Shown: piece by piece, positions 9,392-59,311 of the stretch
Numbering within the stretch: the first letter of the stretch is position 1
Layout: each line of letters opens with the position of its first letter
Notes under the pieces: model-generated
Databases searched by the model: none
What the model was told of the DNA's origin: nothing
What the model saw: the letters and a program-made list of their open reading frames with translations, nothing else
Position numbers and translations under genes: made by a program
Assembly (NCBI GenBank): GCA_021199855.1
Contig: JAJQHD010000036.1
Span: 62,001 to 126,000, forward strand
Length of the DNA stretch: 64,000 nucleotides
Origin: Oscillospiraceae bacterium
Lineage (GTDB): Bacteria > Bacillota > Clostridia > Oscillospirales > Ruminococcaceae
Direction: 5' to 3'

Positions 9392-10816
9392 TCAGACGTT
9401 AATTGTAACGTCGTCGGCTTTTTCTCCTTCGTTCGGAAGAATCTCAGTTCTTACGTACTGAACATACTCCTCCGCCTGGTCTTCGGCAAGACCAGTAAAG
9501 CCGCCTTTATCTATAATACTCTGGATTTCTTCCCGTGTCAACCCAAAAATCGGGTCAGCGGCAATTCTCGAGATAAGATTTCCGTCTCCGCCTTCCTTGA
9601 TGTCGGTCGCCGCGGCTACAGAGTGAGTTCTGATTGCTTCGTGAAGGGTCTGGCGGTCGCCGCCCTTCTTGACACAGTACATGAGAATATTCTCGGTCGC
9701 CATGAAGGGAAGCTCAGCCTGCAAGTGTCTTGCTATAATCTTCGGATAGACTTTCAAGCCACTGATGATGTTTATGTAAAGGCTCAGGATTCCGTCGACT
9801 GCCAGGAAGGCTTCCGGAATACTGATTCTGCGGTTCGCCGAGTCGTCAAGTGTTCTCTCAAACCACTGCTCACTCGCAGTGAGTGCAGGGTTAAGGGCAT
9901 CGACGGTTACGTATCTTGCAAGTGACGCAATTCTTTCCGAGCGCATCGGATTTCTCTTATAAGCCATTGCGGAGGAGCCGACCTGTCCCGCTTCAAACGG
10001 TTCGTCAACTTCTTTTAAGTGCGAAAGAAGCCGGATGTCGTTCGAGAACTTGTGGGCGCTCTGAGCGATTCCCGAAAGAACCGACAGCGAGTAGTAGTCG
10101 ACCTTTCTTGTGTAGGTCTGACCGCTTACTGAATATGCCGCCTCAAAGCCCATTTTCTCTGCGATGAGCTTTTCGAGTTTACGAACTTTATCTTTATCTC
10201 CTCCGAAGAGTTCAAGGAAGCTGGCACCGGTTCCGGTAGTTCCTCTGCAACCTAAAAGTTTTAAGTTAGAAAGGGTGAAGTCGAGCCTCTCCAAATCCAT
10301 AACCAAGTCCTGAAGCCAGAGAGTAGCACGCTTTCCAAGAGTAGTAGGCTGTGCCGCCTGGAAGTGGGTGTAGGCAAGGCAGGGAAGGTCTTTATACTTC
10401 TCTGCAAAGTCGCAAAGAGCAGAAATCGCAGTCACGAGCAGGCTTCTGATTCTGAGGAGCGCATCTCTCTGCAAAATAATATCGGTGTTGTCTCCGACAT
10501 AGCAACTGGTAGCTCCCAGGTGGATTATAGGCTTTGCCTTCGGGCAGACCAAGCCATAGGCATAGATGTGCGCCATTACATCGTGACGGACGACCTTTTC
10601 TCTTGCCGCCGCCGCCTCATAGTCGATGTCGTAGATATGCTCCTTCATTTCGGCAATCTGTTCATCCGAAATGTCGAGTCCAAGCTCTTTTTCACTTTCA
10701 GCAAGAGCAATCCAGAGCTTTCTCCAGGTTGAGAACTTCGTGTCGTCGGAGAAAATCTTCTGCATTTTCTCGCCGGCATATCGCTTGCAAAGCGGATTTT
10801 CATATTTATCAGTCAT
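9392..10816 (-). CDS. purB: Adenylosuccinate lyase
   Basis: PurB splits SAICAR to AICAR and adenylosuccinate to AMP, releasing fumarate each time. The 474-residue protein belongs to the fumarase/aspartase superfamily. It shows the conserved loop GSSAMAYKRNPMRSERI near residue 285, which holds the catalytic serine region, and HLGATSCYVGDNTD near 100. It lies 14 bp after purC and 49 bp before purA, consistent with one transcript. SAICAR, its substrate, is the product of the purC gene immediately upstream. Confidence 0.97.
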   Translation of the reverse strand: MTDKYENPLCKRYAGEKMQKIFSDDTKFSTWRKLWIALAESEKELGLDISDEQIAEMKEHIYDIDYEAAAAREKVVRHDVMAHIYAYGLVCPKAKPIIHLGATSCYVGDNTDIILQRDALLRIRSLLVTAISALCDFAEKYKDLPCLAYTHFQAAQPTTLGKRATLWLQDLVMDLERLDFTLSNLKLLGCRGTTGTGASFLELFGGDKDKVRKLEKLIAEKMGFEAAYSVSGQTYTRKVDYYSLSVLSGIAQSAHKFSNDIRLLSHLKEVDEPFEAGQVGSSAMAYKRNPMRSERIASLARYVTVDALNPALTASEQWFERTLDDSANRRISIPEAFLAVDGILSLYINIISGLKVYPKIIARHLQAELPFMATENILMYCVKKGGDRQTLHEAIRTHSVAAATDIKEGGDGNLISRIAADPIFGLTREEIQSIIDKGGFTGLAEDQAEEYVQYVRTEILPNEGEKADDVTINV

Positions 10817-10830
10817 TATTCCCTCCGAAA

Positions 10831-11532
10831 TCAGATGGCATTTTCAAGTCTTGCTAAAACGTCTCTGTAGCCGTCGAGGACGTTGCCCAAATCTCTGCGG
10901 AAGCGGTCCTTGTCGAGCTTTTCGTTGGTCTCAGCGTCCCAGAGTCTGCAGGAGTCGGGGGAGATTTCGTCGCACAAAAGAAGTTCGCCGTCAACTCTGC
11001 CGAATTCGAGCTTGAAGTCGATGAGCTTGATGCCGCACTTTAAGAAGAGTTCGGTCATGAGCTCGTCAACCTTCAGGGAAACCGCTTTGAGCTCGTCAAG
11101 CTCTGCCTGAGTAGCAACGCCGAGTGCTGTAATCTGGCAGTCGTTGATCATCGGATCTCCCAACTCGTCGCTCTTCAAACTGAATTCTGTAACGGTGTTA
11201 AGGAGCTTTGTTCCCTCCGGAACGCCGTACTTCTTCGAAAAGCTACCTGCCGCAACATTTCTTACAATAACCTCAACCATAACGATGTCAGCCTTCTTGA
11301 CTAAAACCTCAGTCTCATTCAAGACCTTGATAAGATGAGTCTTGACGCCGTTCTTTGCAAGATACTCGAAAATGAGGTTAGAAATCTTTGCGTTGAGGAT
11401 TCCCTTGCCCGGCAAATCTTCCTTCTTGACGCCGTTTCCAGCGGTTGCGGTGTCCTTGTACTTGATAATGCAAGTACCCGGCTCGGTGCCCTCGTAAACG
11501 ATTTTCGACTTTCCTTCATAAAGCTTGTCCAT
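10831..11532 (-). CDS. purC: Phosphoribosylaminoimidazole-succinocarboxamide (SAICAR) synthase
   Basis: PurC joins aspartate to CAIR with ATP in purine synthesis. The 233-residue length is typical for the bacterial stand-alone enzyme. Visible motifs include LYEGKSKIVYEG at the N-terminus, LPGKGILNAKIS, the VEVIVRNVAAGSF segment and LIDFKLEFGR, and LLCDEISPDSCRLWD near the C-terminus. A strong AGGAGG site precedes the ATG. It sits 33 bp after purF. Confidence 0.97.
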   Translation of the reverse strand: MDKLYEGKSKIVYEGTEPGTCIIKYKDTATAGNGVKKEDLPGKGILNAKISNLIFEYLAKNGVKTHLIKVLNETEVLVKKADIVMVEVIVRNVAAGSFSKKYGVPEGTKLLNTVTEFSLKSDELGDPMINDCQITALGVATQAELDELKAVSLKVDELMTELFLKCGIKLIDFKLEFGRVDGELLLCDEISPDSCRLWDAETNEKLDKDRFRRDLGNVLDGYRDVLARLENAI

Positions 11533-11565: not shown

Positions 11566-13017
11566 TTATTTTGATTTGTGAACTCTTGATTTCTGAGGCT
11601 TCGTTTCTGAAAGTTTCCCTTCAAAGCGACCTTTGTCGGTGTGAGCAGGAATCCCTGTCGGGTACTCCCCGGTGAAGCAGGAGGTGCAGATGTTTTCGCT
11701 CTCCGCAAGAAGCTTTAAATCCTCCGTCGGGAGATACCCGAGACTGTCCGCACCGATTATTTCAGCAATCTCATCAACCGTGTGACTGCAAGCGATGAGT
11801 CCGTCCTCTGAGTCGATATCCGTGCCGTAGTAGCAGGGATTCAAAAACGGCGGAGATGAAATCCTGACGTGAACCTCTTTCGCACCGGCATTTCTTAAAA
11901 GCTTTACTATCTGCGCACTGGTAGTTCCTCTGACGATTGAGTCGTCAATCATGATGACGCGCTTGCCCGTGACTGCCTCGCTTATCGGGCTCAGCTTGAT
12001 TCTCACCTGGTCGAGTCTGTCACTCTGAGTCGGCGAGATAAACGTCCGTCCGACGTACTTATTTTTGATGAAGCCGAGTTCATATGGAATCCCGGATTCA
12101 ATCGAGTAGCCTAAAGCCGCATCAAGTCCCGAATCGGGAACGCCGATGACGACGTCCGCCTCTACCGGGTGGCTCTTCGCCAGCAGTTCACCGGCTTTTC
12201 TTCTTGCCGCATGAACCGAAACGCCGTTAATTACGGAATCGGAACGGGCAAAGTAGATATACTCGAAAACGCAGAGCCTTTCCGGCTTCCTTCCGCAGTG
12301 GTCCTTTATCGAGTGAATCCCGTTTTCGTCGAACACGACAATCTCGCCAGGGAGAATGTCCCTCACAAACTCCGCACCAACTGCCGCCAGAGCACAGCTT
12401 TCGGACGTCACAATATAGCATCCGTCTTGGGTTTTGCCATAGCAAAGAGGGCGGAAACCGTGTGCATCACGCATGGCAATCAGCTTCGTCGCCGACATGA
12501 AGACTAAAGAATATGCACCCTCCAAACGCCAAGCGGCGCGGTTCACTGCTTCCTCAATCGAGGGTGCAGTCAATCGCTCCTGCGTGACAATATAAGCTAT
12601 GGTTTCGGTGTCGCTGGTGGTGTGGAATATGGCGCCGGAGAGTTCAAGGCGAGCCCTGAGCTCATAGGCGTTGGTTAAGTTTCCGTTGTGCGCAAGAGCA
12701 AGCCTGCCCTTGCAGTGGTTTACTTCAATAGGCTGGCAGTTCTGCCGGTTAGTACTGCCGGTGGTGCCGTAACGAACGTGCCCGACTGCCATCTGTCCCG
12801 ACGGAAGCGAAGCAATAGCTTCTTTTGTGAACACTTCGCCCACGAGTCCCAAGTCCTTGTGGGAATAGAAAAGCCCGTCGTCGCAAACGACCATTCCGCA
12901 GCTTTCCTGACCCCGGTGTTGCAGAGCATACAACCCATAGTAAACCATATCCGAGAGCCGCCTGGTATCCGGAGCGTAAACTCCAAAAATCCCGCACTCC
13001 TCGTGAATTTCATTCAT
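11566..13017 (-). CDS. purF: Amidophosphoribosyltransferase
   Basis: PurF transfers glutamine amide nitrogen to PRPP, the committed step of purine synthesis. ATG at 13017 is chosen because an AAAGGG site lies nine bases upstream; the frame also extends to a TTG nine bases earlier. The product is 483 residues. It has a seven-residue propeptide and then the nucleophile Cys8 of CGIFGVYAP, exposed after cleavage as in Bacillus-type PurF. The PRPP loop VIMIDDSIVRGTTS is near residue 357. The C-terminal CTSCFTGEYPTG near 444 provides likely [4Fe-4S] ligands of the oxygen-sensitive class. Confidence 0.97.
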   Translation of the reverse strand: MNEIHEECGIFGVYAPDTRRLSDMVYYGLYALQHRGQESCGMVVCDDGLFYSHKDLGLVGEVFTKEAIASLPSGQMAVGHVRYGTTGSTNRQNCQPIEVNHCKGRLALAHNGNLTNAYELRARLELSGAIFHTTSDTETIAYIVTQERLTAPSIEEAVNRAAWRLEGAYSLVFMSATKLIAMRDAHGFRPLCYGKTQDGCYIVTSESCALAAVGAEFVRDILPGEIVVFDENGIHSIKDHCGRKPERLCVFEYIYFARSDSVINGVSVHAARRKAGELLAKSHPVEADVVIGVPDSGLDAALGYSIESGIPYELGFIKNKYVGRTFISPTQSDRLDQVRIKLSPISEAVTGKRVIMIDDSIVRGTTSAQIVKLLRNAGAKEVHVRISSPPFLNPCYYGTDIDSEDGLIACSHTVDEIAEIIGADSLGYLPTEDLKLLAESENICTSCFTGEYPTGIPAHTDKGRFEGKLSETKPQKSRVHKSK

Positions 13018-13046
13018 TCTTATCAACCCTTTGTCAATGCAATCAT

Positions 13047-13092: not shown

Positions 13093-14706
13093 TCATCCTT
13101 TATGCTTCATAGCAGCTTCTACAAAGCCTTTAAATAGCGGATGTGCCTTGTTCGGTCTCGACTTGAATTCCGGATGATACTGAACTCCGACGAAGAACGG
13201 TCTGTCTGTGAGTTCAACCGTCTCGACAAGTCTTCCGTCTGGCGAAAGTCCCGAAAGTGTGAGACCGTGAGAAGTGAGAACTTCTCTGTAGTCGTTGTTG
13301 AATTCGTAACGGTGGCGGTGTCTCTCGTGGATGAGCTCCTCGCCGTAGCATCTTTCCATTGTAGTGCCCTTCTGGACGACGCAGGGATAGCTTCCGAGAC
13401 GAAGCGTTCCGCCCTTGTCGATGTCGACGCTCTGTCCGGGCATGAAGTCGATGACTTTGTTCTTGCAGAGCTCGTCGAACTCGCCAGAGTTGGCATCCGT
13501 GATTCCTGCGACGTTTCTTGCATACTCCATAACCGCAATCTGCATACCGAGGCAGATTCCGAAGTAGGGGACATTGTTCTCCCTTGCATATTTGGCGGCG
13601 AGAACCATTCCCTCAATGCCTCTGTTTCCGAATCCGCCGGGAACTATAATCCCGTCGACGTGGCTTAAAGTCTCTTCGTATGTCGATTCAGTCAGAGTTT
13701 CCGAATCAATCCATGTGATGTTGACATAGCTTCCGAGTGCGAATCCGGCGTGCCGGAGGGCTTCAGCAACTGAGAGATAAGCGTCGTGGAGCTGTATGTA
13801 CTTCCCGACAAGACCGATGTTTACTTCTCCCGAACGGTTCTTAATCATATCGAGCATAGCGAGCCAATCTGACAAATCCGGCTCTGGAGCATCGATGTGG
13901 AGCTCTCTTAAAACGACAGAGGAGAAGTTCGCCTTTTCAAGCATTGTAGGAGCTTCGTAGATGCTAGGTAAAGTGATGTTTTCTATAACGCAGTCCGGCT
14001 TGACGTTGCAGAACATCGAAATCTTCTTGAAGATGGACTCTTCAAGCGGCTCATCGCATCTGAGAACTATGATATTCGGGTTTATTCCCATTCCCTGAAG
14101 CTCCTTGACGGAGTGCTGTGTGGGCTTTGACTTGTGCTCGTCAGAGCCACGCAAAAACGGCACCAGTGTGACATGAATGAAAAGGCTGTTCTCCCATCCT
14201 ACTTCGAGGGAAATCTGTCTTGCAGCTTCGATAAAAGGCTGTGATTCAATGTCGCCGATGGTGCCGCCGATTTCGGTGATGACAATGTCCGCCTGTGTCT
14301 TCTTGCCGACACGGTAGACAAAATCTTTTATTTCATTTGTAATATGGGGGATGACTTGAACGGTCGAACCGAGATACTCGCCCCGACGCTCCTTGTTGAG
14401 TATGTTCCAGTACACCTTTCCCGTTGTGAGATTTGAATACTTGTTCAAATCCTCGTCTATAAATCTTTCATAGTGCCCGAGGTCAAGGTCTGTTTCCGCA
14501 CCGTCTTCGGTGACGTAAACCTCCCCGTGCTGATAGGGACTCATTGTCCCTGGGTCGACGTTGATGTACGGGTCAAGCTTCTGAGCCGCCACCTTCAACC
14601 CTCTTGCCTTCAGCAGTCGTCCCAGAGATGCGGCGGTAATTCCCTTGCCGAGCCCCGAAACGACACCTCCGGTTACGAAAATGTACTTAGTATTCGCTAC
14701 TGACAT
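13093..14706 (-). CDS. pyrG: CTP synthase
   Basis: PyrG aminates UTP to CTP using glutamine and ATP. The 537 residues divide into the synthetase domain ([20 protein letters not shown] at residues 10-29, [19 protein letters not shown] near 50-70) and a class I amidotransferase domain from about 300. The latter has [15 protein letters not shown], nucleophile near residue 382, and [12 protein letters not shown] near the end. Its AAGGAGG site sits inside the last codons of the ANTAR gene and the two genes abut, so it is probably translated from the same message as the nitrogen-assimilation genes. Confidence 0.98.
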
Positions 14707-15312
14707 TTACATATCCTCCTTGCCATTCTGTTCGTATTCTCTGATGATATCCCCTGCGGCGACTTTCTTTGTGACACAAGTGTCCATCGCTAGCTTCTCG
14801 ATATATCTATGAGCTTCAGATTCGCTCATTTCGCACTTTGTAATGAGTAAGAGCTTTGCCTGGTTGACAAGTCTGATTTCCGCCATCTTCTCTTCAAATG
14901 TCGGGCTCTTTCGCTCCATTCGCCTGAGTCTTTCCCGGGTGCCCCGAAGTATCAGAAGCGACTGCTGGATGAGCGGAACGCTCACCGGCTTCGGAATGGT
15001 CAGGACTCCATAGGGCATCAGCATTTCACTGATTTCCGGAAAATGCTCCGTCCCGGCGAAGAGTATAACTCCCGCACCAGAACTCTGACTGAGGTCAATA
15101 GCAAACCGCTTTCCGAACTCGTCCGACAGGGGAGAATTGATCATCACGATGTCGTAATCCCGTTCCAGAACCATTCTTTTTGCGGAACTGACGTCAGATG
15201 CCGTCGAAACGGGGGAGTACACATTAGTAGGAAGAAGCCTTTTTATAACGCCGGAAAATTTTTCGGAGGACGATACAACTAAAACGCTGTAGACCTTCTC
15301 TTTGAGTTCCAT
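14707..15312 (-). CDS. ANTAR-domain RNA-binding antiterminator with pseudo-receiver
   Basis: The 201-residue protein starts at ATG 15312, seven bases after GGAGGT. Residues about 10-120 look like a response-regulator receiver (VLVVSSSEKFSGVIKRLL, YDIVMINSPLSDEFGKR, GVLTIPKPVS). The usual phospho-acceptor aspartate position reads Asn in MINSPL, so it may not be phosphorylated. Residues about 140-195 (FEEKMAEIRLVNQAKLLL, SESEAHRYIEKLAMD) match ANTAR, the three-helix domain that binds paired hexaloop RNA hairpins to block terminators. It sits between glnA and pyrG. A fitting target lies at 21602-21667, ahead of the first gene of this run. Confidence 0.85.
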   Translation of the reverse strand: MELKEKVYSVLVVSSSEKFSGVIKRLLPTNVYSPVSTASDVSSAKRMVLERDYDIVMINSPLSDEFGKRFAIDLSQSSGAGVILFAGTEHFPEISEMLMPYGVLTIPKPVSVPLIQQSLLILRGTRERLRRMERKSPTFEEKMAEIRLVNQAKLLLITKCEMSESEAHRYIEKLAMDTCVTKKVAAGDIIREYEQNGKEDM

Positions 15313-15357
15313 TTTCACGACCTCCGGCATTTTAATGGCGTTATAAAGAGCTGATGG

Positions 15358-16566
15358 TTACCTTGAAGAGTAGTCGTCAATAATCGACTGCGGAATTGAA
15401 GCCTTGACAAAGTCGGAGTTTCGTGCCGCTGAAACGGCTTCCCCGATTGTTCTCGGCAAAGTCTCAAACTTTGAAAGCTCCTTCGGTGTCGCCTTGAAGA
15501 GGTTTATGCCTGTCGGCTCACAGAGTGGAAGCCTGTTCTTTATTCCGTCTTCCATAGCTTTCATGAGAAGAAGTAGTGCGAGATAAGGATTGCACATCGG
15601 GTCGGGAGACCGAAGCTCTGCACGCTTGTATTCACGCTTAGTAGCGGGAATCCTTATGAGCTGGGAGCGGTTCTGCTCCGACCAGGATATATAGAGCGGT
15701 GCCTTGTTGACACCGAATCTTTTGTATGAATCGGGCTGAGAATTTAAAAACAGCGTAATTTCGGAAATATGTTTTAAAATGCCGGCAGTTGCATATGGCA
15801 AAACGTCCTCGCCGTTATAGACAGCGGAGATATTTATGTGCATACCGTTGCCGGGAAGATTCGGAAGCGGCTTCGGCGAGAAGTCGGCGTAAAGTCCGTT
15901 TCTTGCGGCAATGGTCTTTACAACTGAGCGGAATGTAGTCGCATGGTCTGCGGCGGTAAGGGCGTCAGAATAACGAAAATCAATTTTATTCTGACTCGGA
16001 CCTTCTTCGTGGTGGGAGGACTCCGGGACGATTCCCATCTGTTCAAGCGTTAAGCATATTTCGCGCCGGACGTTCTCGCCCTTATCCTCGGGAGCTATGT
16101 CCATATACCCTGCTTGGTCGTATGGAATCTTTGTAGGCTCGCCGTCTTCGTCACGCTTGAAGAGATAAAACTCCGTTTCGGGACCGAAATTGAAGTCGAA
16201 TCCCTCGGATTTCAGATCCTCCGCAGTCTTTTTGAGAAGGCTTCTTGTGTCCGCTTCAAAGACCGTTTTGTCAGGATTGCAAACGGTGCAAAACATTCTT
16301 ACAACTCTTCCGTGCTCCGGACGCCATGGGAGAATTGAAATCTCCGACGGGTCGGGGATGAGGAGCATATCAGAATGGCTTTCCTCACCGAATCCGGCAA
16401 TAGCCGAAGCATCGATTGAGATACCCTGCTCAAAAGCGCGTCTCATTTCGTTCGGCATGATGGAAATGTTCTTGGGCGTTCCGAAAACATCGCAGAACGC
16501 CAGGCGGATGAACTTGACATCCTCTTCCTCAATATACTGGAGAATTTCGTCGGGAGTATAGCTCAT
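15358..16566 (-). CDS. glnA: Glutamine synthetase, short class I type
   Basis: It makes glutamine from glutamate, ammonia and ATP. ATG 16566 is preferred over an in-frame ATG five codons upstream because AAAGGACGG fits only the former. The product is 402 residues, shorter than the usual 440-470 of GSI. Recognisable sites are FGPETEFYLF near residue 130, HHEEGPSQNKIDFRY near 190, GNGMHINIS near 245, NRSQLIRIP and RAELRSPDPMCNPYLA. In GMHINIS the common second histidine (HxH) reads Asn. At the position of the adenylylation tyrosine of enteric enzymes the sequence is NLF, so that control is unlikely. It follows the glutamate synthase genes and precedes the ANTAR gene. Confidence 0.93.
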   Translation of the reverse strand: MSYTPDEILQYIEEEDVKFIRLAFCDVFGTPKNISIMPNEMRRAFEQGISIDASAIAGFGEESHSDMLLIPDPSEISILPWRPEHGRVVRMFCTVCNPDKTVFEADTRSLLKKTAEDLKSEGFDFNFGPETEFYLFKRDEDGEPTKIPYDQAGYMDIAPEDKGENVRREICLTLEQMGIVPESSHHEEGPSQNKIDFRYSDALTAADHATTFRSVVKTIAARNGLYADFSPKPLPNLPGNGMHINISAVYNGEDVLPYATAGILKHISEITLFLNSQPDSYKRFGVNKAPLYISWSEQNRSQLIRIPATKREYKRAELRSPDPMCNPYLALLLLMKAMEDGIKNRLPLCEPTGINLFKATPKELSKFETLPRTIGEAVSAARNSDFVKASIPQSIIDDYSSR

Positions 16567-16590
16567 TTTGCACCGTCCTTTCATGCTGAA

Positions 16591-17307
16591 TCAGTTATTA
16601 ACGTACAATTGCTTGTAAGGGTTCTTCGAGTTGGGAGTTACAACCGTAAACTTGGAGCCTATAATCTCCATTAAATCCGCGCCGAAATAGGTGCAGTAGT
16701 TCTTGAGGTACGGCATAATCTCCGCCATGTCCTCATCCGTCGCTTCATTTACATTGACCTGAGCCGGGAACTTGAGCCCGTCGGCAGTCCTTAGATACAG
16801 CTTTCCACCGTGCATTCCCGTTCCGGGGAAGTTTCCGACAATCGGCAGGTCGCCCTTGTTGAGCCCCAAAACTATAATCAAGCCGCCAGCCTGATATTCG
16901 CCTAAAAAGCTTCCGGTTCTTCCGCCGATGACCATAACCGGTCTTTTTTCCTTGTACTGCTTCATGTGGATTCCTGCACGGTAGCCGGCACTGTCCCTTA
17001 CGTAAATCTCGCCGCCACGCATCGTATATCCGACAGCGTCGCCGACGTGACCGTGGATTATAATCTTGCCGTCGTTCATTGTGTCGCCGACTGCGTCCTG
17101 GGCGTTGCCGTTGACGGTGATTTCGCCGCCGTTGAGATATGCTCCGAGAGCATTTCCGGGAGTGCCGTCAATCGTGATTTCCCGGTAGGACATACCGGCA
17201 CCTATGAACCGTTGACTCAAGCAACCGGTTAAGTGACAGCTCTCACCCTGAGAACGGATCAGGGAATTTATTTCGCTGAATCCCAAGCCTGAAACATCTA
17301 TCAACAT
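16591..17307 (-). CDS. Glutamate synthase GXGXG-domain subunit (GltB domain 3 as a separate protein)
   Basis: The 238-residue protein is a right-handed beta-helix with repeated G-x-x-x-G turns (GNALGAYLNGGEITVNG, DAVGDTMNDGKIIIHG, DAVGYTMRGGEIYVRD). This is the fold of the C-terminal domain of glutamate synthase large subunits. As a separate polypeptide it is typical of archaeal-type split GOGAT, where it is thought to be structural, supporting the FMN domain. ATG 17307 is chosen for its GGAGGTG site; it begins one base after the stop of the upstream FAD oxidoreductase. Neighbours carry the remaining GOGAT domains. Confidence 0.9.
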   Translation of the reverse strand: MLIDVSGLGFSEINSLIRSQGESCHLTGCLSQRFIGAGMSYREITIDGTPGNALGAYLNGGEITVNGNAQDAVGDTMNDGKIIIHGHVGDAVGYTMRGGEIYVRDSAGYRAGIHMKQYKEKRPVMVIGGRTGSFLGEYQAGGLIIVLGLNKGDLPIVGNFPGTGMHGGKLYLRTADGLKFPAQVNVNEATDEDMAEIMPYLKNYCTYFGADLMEIIGSKFTVVTPNSKNPYKQLYVNN

Positions 17308-17308
17308 A

Positions 17309-18544
17309 TTATACCACACCTCCAAGAGAATTTCTACAGTATTCTTGACCAAAAGAAAAGATATTTGGAGCTGATTTTATGGTATCAAAGTCAATAGAGC
17401 TAAGAGAAATACCGTTTCTTATCAAATTTGTATAAATTCCGGCACGGGTCGTATCGCCCGCCAGAATGAACCCTACAAGTCGGTCGTCCTTCGTAAAGAG
17501 CTTCTTTATGTGAGAGTCCGACTTTTCTTCATAGAGTTCGCCATCCTGAGTTCCGGCACTCATAACGTGGAGTCCGAAGAACCCGATTGCATTCATGGGA
17601 ATACCGTTGTCGAAGGTGACGTCAGCGCCAGCCATATTCTCTCCAGCACAGTGACCCTGCATATAGGCGTTCGGCATGATTGCCATGACCTTGACGTTTC
17701 CGGATGAGTAGTCCATAGATTCTGCGCAGTCTCCTGCAGCGTAAATATCGGAAAGCGAAGTCGCCATGTGGTTGTCAACCGTGATTCCACGACCACATTC
17801 GCCACCAGCGTCCTTCACAAGAGAGATATTCGCTTTTACACCGACTGCCAATACCAGAACGTCGAACTTGACCTCCGCTCCGCTCTTCATATAGGCAACA
17901 TTTCCGTCGAACTTGGTGGCGGTGTCGGAAAGCATCAGCTTCAAACCGTTGTCTTCAAGGCACTTTTTCATCATTTCAGCAGTTTCGGCATCTAAGATAC
18001 TCGGCATAACCCTGTCTGCAAGGTCGCATACGGTGATGGATTTTACTCTTCCGTAAAGACCTTCGGCACACTTAAGCCCGATAAGTCCGGCGCCGACGAT
18101 GAAGACGTCGCTGTCCTCCGAAATTGCACTTTCAAGATTCTGTGCGTCATCAAGAGTCATGAACGGGAACTTCTGGGGGACTGTCTCGAGCCCTTCAAAA
18201 GGCGGCACGAGCGGTCTTGAACCAGTGGCAACACAGATGCTGTCGTAGGCGACTTTTTCGCCATTACTGAGAACTACTGATTTTGAATCGGTGTCAATCT
18301 TCTCGGCACTCTCGCCATAGATAACCTTGACGCCATTTTTGTCATAGAAATCGTCGGGACGATAGCTCATTCTCTCCGGAACAGCCTTGCCTTCGAGATA
18401 ATATGAGATAAGCGGACGGCAATAGGCGGGGTGGTTTTCAGCCGAAATAACGGTGATAGAGCCATCCAAATCGTGAGCTCTTATGCCCTCGATACAGCCG
18501 ACAGCGGCGGTTCCGTTGCCGATGATAACATATTTCTTTGCCAT
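17309..18544 (-). CDS. NAD(P)H-dependent FAD oxidoreductase of the split glutamate synthase cluster
   Basis: This 411-residue flavoprotein begins AKKYVIIGNGTAAVGC, an FAD dinucleotide-binding fold. It has a central NAD(P)-binding motif VFIVGAGLIGLKCAEGL near residue 147 and the FAD-closing motif DIYAAGDCAE near 275. It resembles the rubredoxin-reductase/NirB N-terminal group more than the GltD beta subunit. ATG 18544, with GAGGTGAG upstream, was chosen over an ATG 18 codons earlier. Being packed between the ferredoxin gene and the GXGXG gene, it probably passes electrons from NAD(P)H via ferredoxin clusters to the FMN subunit; this is inferred from context. Confidence 0.88.
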   Translation of the reverse strand: MAKKYVIIGNGTAAVGCIEGIRAHDLDGSITVISAENHPAYCRPLISYYLEGKAVPERMSYRPDDFYDKNGVKVIYGESAEKIDTDSKSVVLSNGEKVAYDSICVATGSRPLVPPFEGLETVPQKFPFMTLDDAQNLESAISEDSDVFIVGAGLIGLKCAEGLYGRVKSITVCDLADRVMPSILDAETAEMMKKCLEDNGLKLMLSDTATKFDGNVAYMKSGAEVKFDVLVLAVGVKANISLVKDAGGECGRGITVDNHMATSLSDIYAAGDCAESMDYSSGNVKVMAIMPNAYMQGHCAGENMAGADVTFDNGIPMNAIGFFGLHVMSAGTQDGELYEEKSDSHIKKLFTKDDRLVGFILAGDTTRAGIYTNLIRNGISLSSIDFDTIKSAPNIFSFGQEYCRNSLGGVV

Positions 18545-18549
18545 TTCGC

Positions 18550-18987
18550 TCACCTCTCTTCGTAAACAATCGCATTGTTCGGGCAACCGGCAACACATGC
18601 AGGCGCACCCGATGAGTTTTTAAGGCAGAGTTCGCACTTCTGAACTGCTCCGTCGCCGTCCTGAATAACGGCTCCGTATGGGCATACGAGGACACAGGTA
18701 AGGCAACCGACGCATCTTGATTTGTCGATTTCGACCATGCCATCGGGAGTCTTTGAAAGTGCTCCCGAAATACAGCTCTTTATGCATATCGGGTCTTCGC
18801 AGTGACGGCAGGAGATTGCGAAAGTAATCTTGTCGTCGCCTTCAACCCTGATTCTCGGGTATATTTTCTGACCCTTCAGTTTAGCCATATTTTTGAGTCC
18901 CGAGTTTGCAAAAGCGCAGTTATACTCGCAGAGATGGCACCCGAGGCACCATTTTTCGTTTACATAAACTCTTTTCATATCCGTCAC
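18550..18987 (-). CDS. Multi-cluster 4Fe-4S ferredoxin (electron-transfer subunit)
   Basis: The 145-residue protein carries four cysteine groups: CLGCHLCEYNC (residues about 14-24), CRHCEDPICIKSC (60-72), CVGCLTCVLVC (91-101) and CELCLKNSSGAPACVAGC (118-135). This is the pattern of HycB/CooF-like subunits with up to four [4Fe-4S] clusters. Its ATG overlaps the stop of the upstream FMN/Fe-S glutamate synthase gene by four bases, and its stop is five bases before the flavoprotein start. It is therefore a good candidate for the wire between flavoprotein and synthase. It has no membrane segment or signal peptide. Confidence 0.9.
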   Translation of the reverse strand: MTDMKRVYVNEKWCLGCHLCEYNCAFANSGLKNMAKLKGQKIYPRIRVEGDDKITFAISCRHCEDPICIKSCISGALSKTPDGMVEIDKSRCVGCLTCVLVCPYGAVIQDGDGAVQKCELCLKNSSGAPACVAGCPNNAIVYEER

Positions 18988-20489
18988 TCCCCCGCATGTG
19001 AGATACCAAGTATCTCTAACTCTTTTTCGTTAAGACCCATTCCTCTGAGCATAAGCCTGTTTCCTCTGAGAGCTTCAATCGAGTTTATACCCATTCCGCC
19101 CATGAGCTCCATAATCTCGTGCCGCCATGCGTTCATGAGATTTATAAGCCTCTGTGAGCCGATGTCCGGGTTGAGATGCTTGACGAGCTCCGGCTTCTGG
19201 GTTGCAATTCCCCAGTTGCAGTTGCCGGTGTGACAAGTGCGGCAGAGATGACATCCAAGCGCCAGAAGTGCGGCAGTCGCAACATAGCAGGCATCAGCGC
19301 CGAGAGCAACAGCCTTTACAACATCCGAAGCCGAGCGGATACTTCCTCCGACAACCAGTGATACGTTGTTTCTTATACCTTCGTCACGGAGTCTCTGGTC
19401 GACTGCGGCAAGCGCAAGCTCAATCGGAATACCGACGTTGTCTCTGATTCTTGTCGGAGCCGCACCGGTTCCTCCTCTGAAGCCGTCGATTGCGATTATG
19501 TCGGCACCGCTTCTTGCGATACCGCTTGCAATAGCCGCTATATTATGTACAGCCGCTACTTTTACAATAACCGGCTTTGTGTATTGTGTCGCTTCTTTAA
19601 GAGAGTAGACCAGCTGTCTCAAATCCTCGATGGAGTAGATATCGTGGTGCGGGGCAGGGGAGATGGCGTCCGAGCCCTCGGGAATCATTCTCGTCCTCGA
19701 AACGTCGCCGACAATCTTCTTGCCGGGAAGATGTCCGCCGATACCAGGCTTTGCGCCCTGACCCATTTTGATTTCGATTGCGGCACCTGCGCTGAGGTAA
19801 TCCTCATGAACGCCGAAACGTCCCGAAGCAACCTGAACGATGGTATTCGCACCATATTTGTAGAAGTCCTCGTGAAGTCCGCCCTCACCGGTGTTGTAGT
19901 AGATACCCAAATTTTCTGCGGCTCTTGCAAGGCTCTCGTGTGCGTTGTAGCTGATGGAGCCGTAGCTCATCGCCGAGAACATTACCGGCATCGAGAGCTC
20001 AAGCTGGGGAGCCAGGTCTGTCTTCAAGCTTCCGTCGGGATTTCTTTCCGGCATTGTTGGCTTCTTGCCTAAGAATACTTTAGTCTCCATCGGCTCTCTT
20101 AACGGGTCGATTGGAGGATTCGTAACCTGCGAAGCATTTATCAGAATCTTGTCCCAGTAAACAGGGAGCGGCTTCGGGTTGCCCATCGAAGAAAGAAGAA
20201 CTCCTCCGCTTCCAGCCTGCTTGTAGATTTCATAGATTGTGTCCTGTTGCCAGTTGGCGTTTTCGCGCAGCGCGCAGTCGTTCTTGACGATTTTAAGAGC
20301 CCTTGTCGGGCAGAGCGCCACGCATCTCTGGCAGTCAACGCACTTTGTCTCGTCCGCCATCATCGTGCCGGTTTCCGGGTCAAAGCTGTGGACGCCGTTT
20401 GCACACTGACGCTCACAGACCCTGCACGCAATACAGCGGTTGGGATTTCTTACAACCTCAAATTCGGGGTTAACATAATTTATAGCCAT
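18984..20489 (-). CDS. Glutamate synthase FMN/Fe-S subunit, archaeal type (GltB domain 2 with N-terminal ferredoxin)
   Basis: The 501-residue protein combines an N-terminal two-cluster ferredoxin (CIACRVCERQC near 19-29, CVDCQRCVALC near 50-60) with the FMN-binding glutamate synthase domain. The latter includes NTGEGGLHEDFYKYG near 190, KPGIGGHLPGKKI near 235 and IDGFRGGTGAAP near 335. The CHLCRTCHTGNC motif near 425 would hold the [3Fe-4S] centre. It reduces 2-oxoglutarate plus ammonia to glutamate. Ammonia should come from the amidotransferase subunit encoded immediately upstream, whose stop codon overlaps this ATG by one base. Confidence 0.95.
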   Translation of the reverse strand: MAINYVNPEFEVVRNPNRCIACRVCERQCANGVHSFDPETGTMMADETKCVDCQRCVALCPTRALKIVKNDCALRENANWQQDTIYEIYKQAGSGGVLLSSMGNPKPLPVYWDKILINASQVTNPPIDPLREPMETKVFLGKKPTMPERNPDGSLKTDLAPQLELSMPVMFSAMSYGSISYNAHESLARAAENLGIYYNTGEGGLHEDFYKYGANTIVQVASGRFGVHEDYLSAGAAIEIKMGQGAKPGIGGHLPGKKIVGDVSRTRMIPEGSDAISPAPHHDIYSIEDLRQLVYSLKEATQYTKPVIVKVAAVHNIAAIASGIARSGADIIAIDGFRGGTGAAPTRIRDNVGIPIELALAAVDQRLRDEGIRNNVSLVVGGSIRSASDVVKAVALGADACYVATAALLALGCHLCRTCHTGNCNWGIATQKPELVKHLNPDIGSQRLINLMNAWRHEIMELMGGMGINSIEALRGNRLMLRGMGLNEKELEILGISHAGE

Positions 20490-21580
20490 CAGTATTTCCC
20501 TTCTTTCACCTTAACTATAATCGGCTCTCCGCCGGCAGGAGCATACACATTTGTAGCGTCCGGAGCAATTGCCCTTATCGCCGATTCCTCACTCGCAACG
20601 AAGACCAAATCGTCCTTTTCGGCTGTGACCATAGACCGAAGCTTCAGTCTGTCATTAAGTGCCATAAGTCCGCCCTCAAAGCCCAAAACTATCGAGAAGG
20701 GACCTGTAACCAAGAGACTTGAGTAAACAGTTCTTAAGTAGCTGAGCTTCTTGCGTTCTTCTTCCGGCTTATTCTCAATAGTAGACCAGAAGGGAGCGGC
20801 AATAACTGATGCAGTCTCCTCAAGAGTCAGACCCTGCCTTCTCAGAAGATAGTCCGCAATGTATGTGATAACTTCTGTATCAGTCTGAAGTGTGCACTTG
20901 TAGCCGTACATCTCGATATATCGACGGTTTGCATCGTAGGAAGAAATCTCGCCGTTGTGGACGATTGTGTAATCCAAGAGCGCAAACGGGTGAGCACCGC
21001 CCCACCAGCCGGGAGTGTTTGTAGGATATCTTCCGTGAGCCGTCCAGCAGTAGCCCTCATATTCATCCAATCTATAGAAATATCCGACATCTTCCGGGAA
21101 TCCGACCGCCTTGAATACGCCCATATTCTTTCCCGAAGAAAATACGTAGGCGCCATTAATCTGGGAGTTGATCTTCATGACCGTCTCCGCAACATACTCT
21201 TTTTCGTCGACGTGAAGTCTTGAAAGAACCGAGGACATCGGAGCCACGAAGTATCTCCAGATAAGCGGAACATCGGTGATTTTCAGGGTCTTCCTTATCG
21301 GAATACTCTCTGACTTGATAATCTCGAACCCATCCTTGAGTAAATTCTCGCATGTCATTCTGACGTTGTTGTCGTTGTAGAAAATATGCAGTGCGTAGAA
21401 TTCCTTATATTCCGGATAAATACCGTATGCCGCAAATCCGCCTCCCAAGCCGTTTGAGCGGTCGTGCATCGGTATCATGCTTTTTATGATGGCGTCTCCG
21501 CTCATCTTCCTGCCTTCACGCGAGATAACTGCGGAAATGGCACAGCCCGAAGGTATGCGTACCTGACCTTCTAACTTCAT
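20489..21580 (-). CDS. Glutamate synthase amidotransferase subunit (class II, GltB domain 1)
   Basis: ATG 21580 is supported by AAAGGAAGAG; the frame extends six codons further up without a better site. The 363-residue product has GCAISAVISREG at residues 12-23, so the presumed nucleophile is Cys13 and a 12-residue leader must be removed. MHDRSNGLGGGFAAYG follows. WTAHGRYPTNTPGWWGGAHPF near 185 and TIVHNGEISSYDANRRY near 210 are typical class II signatures, and TDTEVITYIADY completes the domain. It should hydrolyse glutamine and hand ammonia to the FMN subunit. It is the first gene of the nitrogen cluster, directly behind the hexaloop/terminator leader. Confidence 0.92.
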   Translation of the reverse strand: MKLEGQVRIPSGCAISAVISREGRKMSGDAIIKSMIPMHDRSNGLGGGFAAYGIYPEYKEFYALHIFYNDNNVRMTCENLLKDGFEIIKSESIPIRKTLKITDVPLIWRYFVAPMSSVLSRLHVDEKEYVAETVMKINSQINGAYVFSSGKNMGVFKAVGFPEDVGYFYRLDEYEGYCWTAHGRYPTNTPGWWGGAHPFALLDYTIVHNGEISSYDANRRYIEMYGYKCTLQTDTEVITYIADYLLRRQGLTLEETASVIAAPFWSTIENKPEEERKKLSYLRTVYSSLLVTGPFSIVLGFEGGLMALNDRLKLRSMVTAEKDDLVFVASEESAIRAIAPDATNVYAPAGGEPIIVKVKEGKY

Positions 21581-21601
21581 GACTTCTCTTCCTTTCATCT
21601 A

Positions 21602-21667
21602 AGAAAAAAGCAAAGGCGTTACTTCAAAAAGGGTATACTATCCCCTGTATGAACGCCTTTGCTCATT
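21602..21667 (-). promoter_or_regulatory. Leader with intrinsic terminator and dual hexaloop antiterminator (probable ANTAR target)
   Basis: On the minus strand, AGCAAAGGCGTT (21652-21663) pairs perfectly with AACGCCTTTGCT (21609-21620), and a T-run follows at 21602-21608: an intrinsic terminator ahead of the glutamate synthase genes. Alternatively the 5' arm folds as P1: ATGAGC and GTTCAT (21661-21666 with 21649-21654) close a six-base loop AAAGGC. After two bases comes P2 (21630-21646), where AGGGG and U-A-CCCU close the loop AUAGUA with one bulged A. Both loops have A at position 1 and G at position 4, the reported ANTAR recognition rule. P1 and the terminator cannot coexist. The cognate ANTAR protein is probably the one at 14707-15312. 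Confidence 0.72.
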
Positions 21668-21674
21668 ACAAGAA

Positions 21675-21703
21675 ATTATATCATGTTAAAGTCAAAGTGT
21701 CAA
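21675..21703 (-). promoter_or_regulatory. Promoter of the glutamate synthase/glutamine synthetase run
   Basis: Perfect consensus boxes on the minus strand: TTGACA (21698-21703) and TATAAT (21675-21680), 17 bp apart. Initiation near 21668-21666 would place hairpin P1 at the very 5' end of the message. With a consensus promoter, control must act mostly after initiation, which fits the terminator in the leader. Confidence 0.85.
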
Positions 21704-59057: not shown

Positions 59058-59064
59058 AGTTGAA

Positions 59065-59311
59065 AAGGCGTTGACGGGAACAAAGCCATCCACTTGGTTA
59101 TAAGAGAGCCGCCGGTCGGTGAAAGGCGGTAACGGGTCTTTGGTATAACTCATCCCTGAGCTTTCGGCTGAACGTGAAACTAGTAGGTTTGAACGGGTGC
59201 TCCCGTTAAAGGGCGGTCGTGTTGGTTGACACGAAATGAGAGGACACAGCTTTTAGCAAAGCGAGTCAAAAAGAGTGGTACCGCGGAGATATTATGACTT
59301 CGTCTCTTTTA
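59065..59311 (+). promoter_or_regulatory. T-box leader, leucine specifier
   Basis: The T-box AAGAGTGGTACCGCGG is at 59271-59286. The GAGAGCC start of Stem I lies near 59104. The specifier region TATAACTCATCC gives CTC at 59149-59151 followed by A, a leucine codon, matching leuA downstream. The terminator formed after the T-box (GGAGAT near 59285 with GTCTC at 59302, then TTTT) is short. Another hairpin, TTTGGGT/ACCCAAA, lies at about 59328-59359 before the leuA ribosome-binding site. Confidence 0.88.

Follow-up and report, generated by a model that had tools for sequence, protein, structure and literature searches.

The leader of a split glutamate synthase (GOGAT) gene run in an Oscillospiraceae bacterium is probably a transcription attenuator with a single hexaloop hairpin at its 5' end, a predicted binding site for an ANTAR protein. 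The window analysed, a 64,000-nucleotide stretch of contig JAJQHD010000036.1, had earlier been described from its sequence alone; that sequence-only reading proposed a dual hexaloop antiterminator through which an ANTAR protein activates its own operon. The features of the leader and of the gene run are listed below, with window coordinates.

21675..21703, minus strand: sigma-70-type promoter, TTGACA-17 nt-TATAAT (12/12 consensus matches)
21649..21666, minus strand: conserved hexaloop hairpin AUGAGC-AAAGGC-GUUCAU, proposed ANTAR-binding antiterminator, P2-like (genus leaders, other genera and families, covariation)
21630..21646, minus strand: variable apical hairpin of the terminator (P2 of the sequence-only reading, loop AUAGUA), not a conserved hexaloop (8/29 genus leaders; no loop preference in 130 non-duplicate leaders)
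21604..21663, minus strand: intrinsic terminator, 12-bp stem and T-run, exclusive with the hexaloop hairpin (fold energies)
20489..21580, minus strand: glutamine amidotransferase (class II) subunit of the split glutamate synthase (Pfam GATase_2)
18984..20489, minus strand: glutamate synthase core subunit with ferredoxin-type Fe-S motifs (PF01645, 469 bits)
18550..18987, minus strand: 4Fe-4S ferredoxin-like protein
17309..18598, minus strand: pyridine nucleotide-disulphide oxidoreductase
16591..17352, minus strand: GXGXG domain (GOGAT C-terminal) subunit
15358..16584, minus strand: glutamine synthetase (GS; PF00120, 289 bits)
14707..15330, minus strand: ANTAR protein with degenerate receiver domain, proposed antiterminator (PF03861)
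13093..14706, minus strand: pyrG, CTP synthase (glutamine-hydrolysing)
11566..13026, minus strand: purF, amidophosphoribosyltransferase
10831..11532, minus strand: purC
9392..10816, minus strand: purB

The promoter upstream of the terminator, noted as a consensus one in the sequence-only reading, is perfect, and that reading was also right in placing a 12-bp terminator stem with a T-run before the first GOGAT gene and a hairpin with loop AAAGGC across the terminator arm. The 5' arm of the terminator (GCAAAGGCGUU, 21662-21652, minus strand) pairs with 21620-21610, and the T-run follows at 21609-21604. This fold had an energy of -26.0 kcal/mol (z -5.1), and none of 200 shuffled sequences was equally stable. 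The hexaloop hairpin and the terminator are mutually exclusive, since the loop and 3' arm of the former double as the 5' arm of the latter. When the two states were compared, as the earlier reading had suggested, the leader with the hexaloop hairpin forced reached -13.2 kcal/mol, so the hairpin would need a binder to win. On the minus strand of the window, ATGAGC-AAAGGC-GTTCAT starts eight bases downstream of the -10 box, and the earliest bases of the RNA should therefore form the hairpin. No Rfam model matched the leader at the gathering score or above; the sub-threshold matches were to miRNA, sRNA and organelle or snRNA models. Elsewhere in the window, a T-box leader (RF00230, 106.3 bits) was found at 59062-59310 on the plus strand. 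For the first gene, the ATG at 21580, which follows the ribosome-binding sequence AAAGGAAG, is the likelier start; the listed open reading frame start at 21598 lies ahead of AAAGGAAG.

Conservation was assessed in 31 genomes of the genus. The ANTAR gene, the first GOGAT gene (amidotransferase) and the 18-base motif (at most one mismatch) were each present in 29, and these were the same 29 genomes, with G005 and G028 lacking all three. Leaders were taken by gene and not by motif. The hairpin RUGA[G/A]C-AANGGC-GUUCAY, with 14 invariant columns, was kept in all 29 leaders, so that every one has a terminator-overlapping hairpin with an A1/G4 loop and a C-G closing pair. Among the 27 distinct rows of the alignment the outer pair was AU in 16, GC in nine and GU in two; this pair alone covaries, and 483 of 500 shuffles match that. 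The most stable fold was in every leader (29/29) the terminator that breaks the hairpin, the margin between the two folds being less than 2 kcal/mol in L047 and L048.

Beyond the genus, the motif was found in 42 of 197 family genomes at 48 places, compared to three places for the reversed pattern; 144 of the 197 genomes have ANTAR and 74 have a GOGAT gene of this type. Thirty of the family motif loci were inspected: 21 lie upstream of a GOGAT run, six upstream of GS or a GS-reaching run (L073, L075, L077, L088, L093 and L095) and one (L072) upstream of pyrG, while L089 and L099 look like chance. At named GOGAT loci, which include those of Ruminococcus albus 8, AR67 and Massiliimalia timonensis, the hairpin was visible by eye in 76 of 80 (exceptions L126, L140, L168 and L170), and some of the stems were compensated in full, AAGAGC/GCTCTT and CAGAGC/GCTCTG among them. 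At several family loci (L070, L085 and L087 among them) a weak glutamine-synthetase-like match (~23-31% identity) was also noted on the opposite strand, ~900-1500 bases upstream of the leader. The class list at one mismatch held 94 places against 21 reversed-pattern controls, and single matches therefore need inspection. Thirty class loci were examined in this way; a promoter and an overlapping terminator were seen by eye in 19, including L284, whose terminator 3' arm extends beyond the examined stretch. One of the others was at a contig end and ten were chance-like.

A total of 180 leaders were clustered by shared exact 60-mers into 156 non-duplicate leaders. An automatic rule for a hexaloop with an overlapping terminator was passed by 134 of these, compared to 134 of 1550 shuffles, and loops violating the A1/G4 rule passed in 18-51 of the 156. 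Because the rule selects on the loop, independent evidence on the loop comes from the genus set and not from the counts given by the rule. Within the 134, L168, L202, L224, L233 and L236 were judged to be chance and L129 was counted via a wrong site, and hairpins missed by the rule were visible by eye in L047, L058, L059, L160, L163, L197, L198 and L237. For covariation, four of 63 distinct hairpins were omitted as chance picks and L129 was added. In the resulting 60 distinct hairpins, 91.4% of cells pair, failures are confined to the two outer pairs, and the closing pair is C-G in 59, in a set picked partly by loop. Five of the six pairs change on both sides, a number reached by 42 of 500 shuffles. 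The covariation score was 0.324 compared to 0.245 in shuffles, none of 500 reaching 0.324. Judged from these alignments, stem covariation appears modest overall.

The presence of an ANTAR gene in the same run, also claimed from the sequence alone, was confirmed by profile (PF03861, 46.1 bits against a cut-off of 27.3), and it was the sole ANTAR match detected in the genome. NCBIfam gave no match for this protein, and 15 other members of the group were without a specific ANTAR family. The ANTAR domain keeps a Met that, by spacing, would match Met172 of EutV; where spacing would place EutV Tyr164, His is present in 78 of 78 relatives and Phe in Rv1626. The receiver domain scored 26.5 bits, below its 30.2 cut-off. 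Asn occupies the position aligned with the phospho-acceptor Asp of Rv1626, the phospho-accepting Asp being kept in three of 78 aligned ANTAR proteins, and the motif around N-x-P-L-x-D-E-x-G is largely kept among the 78. With the phospho-acceptor replaced, a kinase is an unlikely input to the protein. The persistent GS-ANTAR neighbourhood makes the adjacent GS the first candidate for its partner or sensor.

The hexaloop and the ANTAR gene also go together across genomes. Of 291 class genomes, 145 have ANTAR and 34 have the exact motif; ANTAR was found in 30 of those 34 compared to 115 of the 257 others (p 9e-7). For the one-mismatch motif in the family the association was weaker, at 37 of 42 genomes with the motif compared to 107 of 155 without it (p 0.017). 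As the genomes are related, these p-values overstate independence. In G001 and G004, the GS-ANTAR pair and GOGAT occupy separate loci, both of which carry the hairpin and a terminator. GS and ANTAR both belong to the run at 38 of 71 family GOGAT loci, and the rule detected the hexaloop at 37 of these; the exception, L197, has the hairpin but fails the T-run part of the rule. Ten loci have ANTAR without GS, and two of these passed, both weak, distant from the gene and chance-like. The other 23 fall in neither group, many being cut by contig ends. A second type of split-GOGAT run was also observed (L224, L229, L230, L233, L234, L241-L244 and L246), in which a diverged ANTAR gene closely follows the GXGXG gene, GS is not adjacent and the leader has no convincing hexaloop.

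The run in the window continues past ANTAR into pyrG-purF-purC-purB with short gaps. A terminator scan between these genes found none above chance; as the scan also misses the long-loop terminator of the leader itself, their co-transcription is judged from spacing. In other genomes, downstream genes were named by a profile above its curated cut-off or by tblastn. Those preceded by the motif include GOGAT runs, GS, carA (L255, L266), pyrG (L072, L311), guaA (L308), asnB (L288), glmS (L306), purC (L281, L284) and purA (L265, L280). Below the profile cut-off were an amt-like transporter (L273), a murT-like gene (L312), a large GS-like protein (L314) and a glutamate synthase large subunit truncated at the end of the stretch (L321). 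The genes at L292, L293 and L310 resemble asnB at their start, and those at L313 and L324 resemble glmS. By these assignments, most of the motif-preceded genes would make or spend glutamine. A single-hexaloop leader was also found at dapF (L320, G316), which does not encode a glutamine enzyme.

In the proposed mechanism, RNA polymerase would start ~0-3 bases from the hairpin AUGAGC-AAAGGC-GUUCAU, as judged from the promoter. If no binder is present, G4, G5 and C6 of the loop and the 3' arm would pair with the downstream terminator arm, so that transcription would stop at the T-run. The active ANTAR protein, whose gene is the seventh in the run, would bind the hexaloop as it emerges, keep the hairpin and so block the terminator. 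The polymerase would then transcribe GOGAT, GS, ANTAR and probably pyrG-purF-purC-purB, which would amount to positive autoregulation. We infer that the ANTAR protein binds the loop of the leader and that one loop suffices. The signal may be low glutamine or low nitrogen, and the receiver without a phospho-acceptor suggests that it acts free of phosphorylation. Antitermination of its own operon by the ANTAR protein, as put forward in the sequence-only reading, is supported by the loop conservation and stem covariation, by the co-occurrence and by the second site at unlinked GS-ANTAR genes; the dual anatomy attached to it is not.

According to that anatomy, AAAGGC (as P1) and AUAGUA (as P2) form a true dual-hexaloop element bound by one ANTAR dimer, which we regard as highly improbable. 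Both loops in the window do carry A1 and G4, two bases apart, and an A1/G4 loop with a bulge (AUAGUA or AUAGUC) occupies the second-loop place in eight of the 29 genus leaders, all from the closest relatives; in the other 21, however, it is missing there. Other A1/G4 candidates lie elsewhere downstream of the hairpin in L032, L037, L042, L043 and L049, and in the remaining genus leaders the second-loop place is a hairpin of differing sequence and loop size at the terminator tip. In the window, the AUAGUA loop closes solely via a G-U pair with a bulged A; folded alone, its hairpin gave a z of -0.60, with 52 of 200 shuffles as stable. Within 45 bases 3' of the hairpin, six of 130 non-duplicate leaders have a bulge-free A1/G4 hexaloop, and shuffles give 6.9. 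Allowing one bulge raises the count to 37; shuffles then give 21.4, and other loop rules 22-38. At the second-loop place a hairpin is favoured and an A1/G4 loop is not. The second hairpin moreover survives within the terminator fold and is therefore not exclusive with the terminator. Of the two loops whose A1 and G4 the sequence-only reading expected homologous leaders to keep, the first is thus kept in all 29 and the second is not. The leaders do not conform to a dual hexaloop in the sense of two hexaloop hairpins with A1 and G4 in both and a short linker, and such an element inside the leader was rejected, since A1/G4 loops at the second place were about as frequent as in shuffles or as loops of other types. 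A run of the dual-loop detector around ten strong class ANTAR matches of unknown site type, meant as a positive control, found no dual motif and so does not add to this case.

An upstream canonical P1 was likewise rejected. In the 130 leaders, all with a recognisable promoter, the median gap from -10 box to hairpin was eight bases, and fewer than 14 bases separate the predicted start from the hairpin in 112, leaving too little room. An A1/G4 loop lies upstream in one of the 18 leaders with more room. The 5'-terminal position of the hairpin therefore leaves most leaders no place for a further hexaloop upstream; this position, which the sequence-only reading had called unusual, is real but common. 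The labels in that reading were swapped relative to the published motif, as the hairpin overlapping the terminator in eut is described as P2 (PMC8934654); by analogy, the conserved leader hairpin corresponds to the canonical P2. Two loops could also be supplied in trans, if one ANTAR dimer joined the single hexaloops of two transcripts, or the leader and another RNA. The loops in the EutV crystal belong to different RNA molecules (PMC8934654) and some genomes have two to four sites, yet the genome analysed and 26 others of the genus have one site, or one plus a chance-like match, and the EutV authors judged bridging unlikely on timing (PMC8934654). We consider it improbable here. Finally, a factor other than the ANTAR protein could read the hairpin, as an attenuator or 5'-end element, with the ANTAR link mere genomic proximity. 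In keeping with this, no ANTAR domain was found in four exact-motif class genomes (G267, G437, G491, G508) and two family genomes (G108, G065), where a profile of this ANTAR group gave nothing in the first five and receiver-type matches only in G065; these are drafts of 70-170 contigs, and the GOGAT contig of G065 ends early. Also, 107 of the 144 family genomes with ANTAR are without the motif at one mismatch, partly because the motif diverges. Set against this, the loop and closing pair fit the published ANTAR preference, most exact-motif class genomes (30/34) have ANTAR, the motif goes along with GS-ANTAR when unlinked, and the rule found no hexaloop in eight of the ten operons with ANTAR but without GS, the other two being chance-like. 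Such a factor therefore seems very unlikely, and a single hexaloop recognised by the ANTAR protein remains the preferred reading.

The closest parallel is EutV and the eut leaders of Enterococcus faecalis (PMC3369931, PMC8934654), in which an A1/G4 hexaloop hairpin also overlaps the 5' arm of the terminator, the protein has the same REC-ANTAR architecture and the genes are nitrogen-related. However, eut needs an upstream P1 at a set distance, whereas the present leaders lack a conserved P1 and mostly leave too little space for it, and the Asp on which EutV is phosphorylated is replaced in the protein described here. Deletion of P1 in eut abolishes induction, and an altered linker drastically reduces it (PMC3369931). 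NasR binds one hairpin ~12-fold more weakly than two, and its SELEX gives a closing C-G pair, as in the leader hairpin (PMC7496416). The published surveys of ANTAR RNAs consulted demand two stem-loops (PMC3369931, PMC8164766). Nitrogen-gene control by ANTAR has likewise been reported for glutamate synthase substrates in Desulfotomaculum reducens and a nitrogen regulon in D. acetoxidans (PMC3369931); the covariance model behind those sites has two hairpins, and leaders with one hexaloop would probably be missed by it. As described in PMC8934654, the EutV dimer cannot bind both loops simultaneously, and the minimal target was redefined as one hexaloop. That paper raises the question of why two hairpins are needed by a dimer that binds them singly, expects single sites in settings where ongoing transcription imposes no time limit, and calls for work on single hexaloops. 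Its precedents for one hexaloop as an ANTAR target, an extra loop in EutX RNA and Mycobacterium tuberculosis RNAs that are not always dual, differ in acting by sequestration or in overlapping ribosome-binding sites and 5'-UTRs; its discussion does not mention a single hexaloop overlapping a terminator.

In gene content, Clo1313_2030-2036 of Clostridium thermocellum is similar, with GATase, Fd-GOGAT, Fe-S and annotated GS genes and an ANTAR regulator at the end of the run; an antiterminator role was proposed for this cluster and for NitR of C. acetobutylicum, with no RNA element described in that account (PMC4676874). AmiR of Pseudomonas aeruginosa (1qo0), which matches the ANTAR protein of the window at E 4e-4, is also a pseudo-receiver ANTAR protein controlled by a protein partner, AmiC, and not by phosphorylation (PMC8934654). 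The partner and signal differ, and the amiE leader is described as a dual hexaloop (PMC3369931). ANTAR antitermination is thus already known as a mode of control; no description of its single-hexaloop, terminator-linked, 5'-end form over a glutamine gene set was found in titles and abstracts of the open-access literature on ANTAR RNAs, NitR and Ruminococcus albus nitrogen metabolism.

These leaders seem to be naturally occurring terminator sites with a single hexaloop, so the question of why there are two hairpins becomes directly testable. More tentatively, the leaders may belong to a class-wide glutamine regulon, with one 5'-terminal hexaloop per leader and a pseudo-receiver ANTAR protein gated by glutamine-bound GS and not by a kinase, in which glutamine synthesis and many glutamine-amidotransferase pathways would be switched on together. 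The protein would bind the hexaloop as the earliest RNA structure to emerge from the polymerase. If this were true, one hexaloop would suffice for antitermination within the time that transcription allows, contrary to the two-loop requirement. The leaders suggest how many Clostridia may coordinate their use of glutamine, through an RNA and a kinase-independent ANTAR protein.
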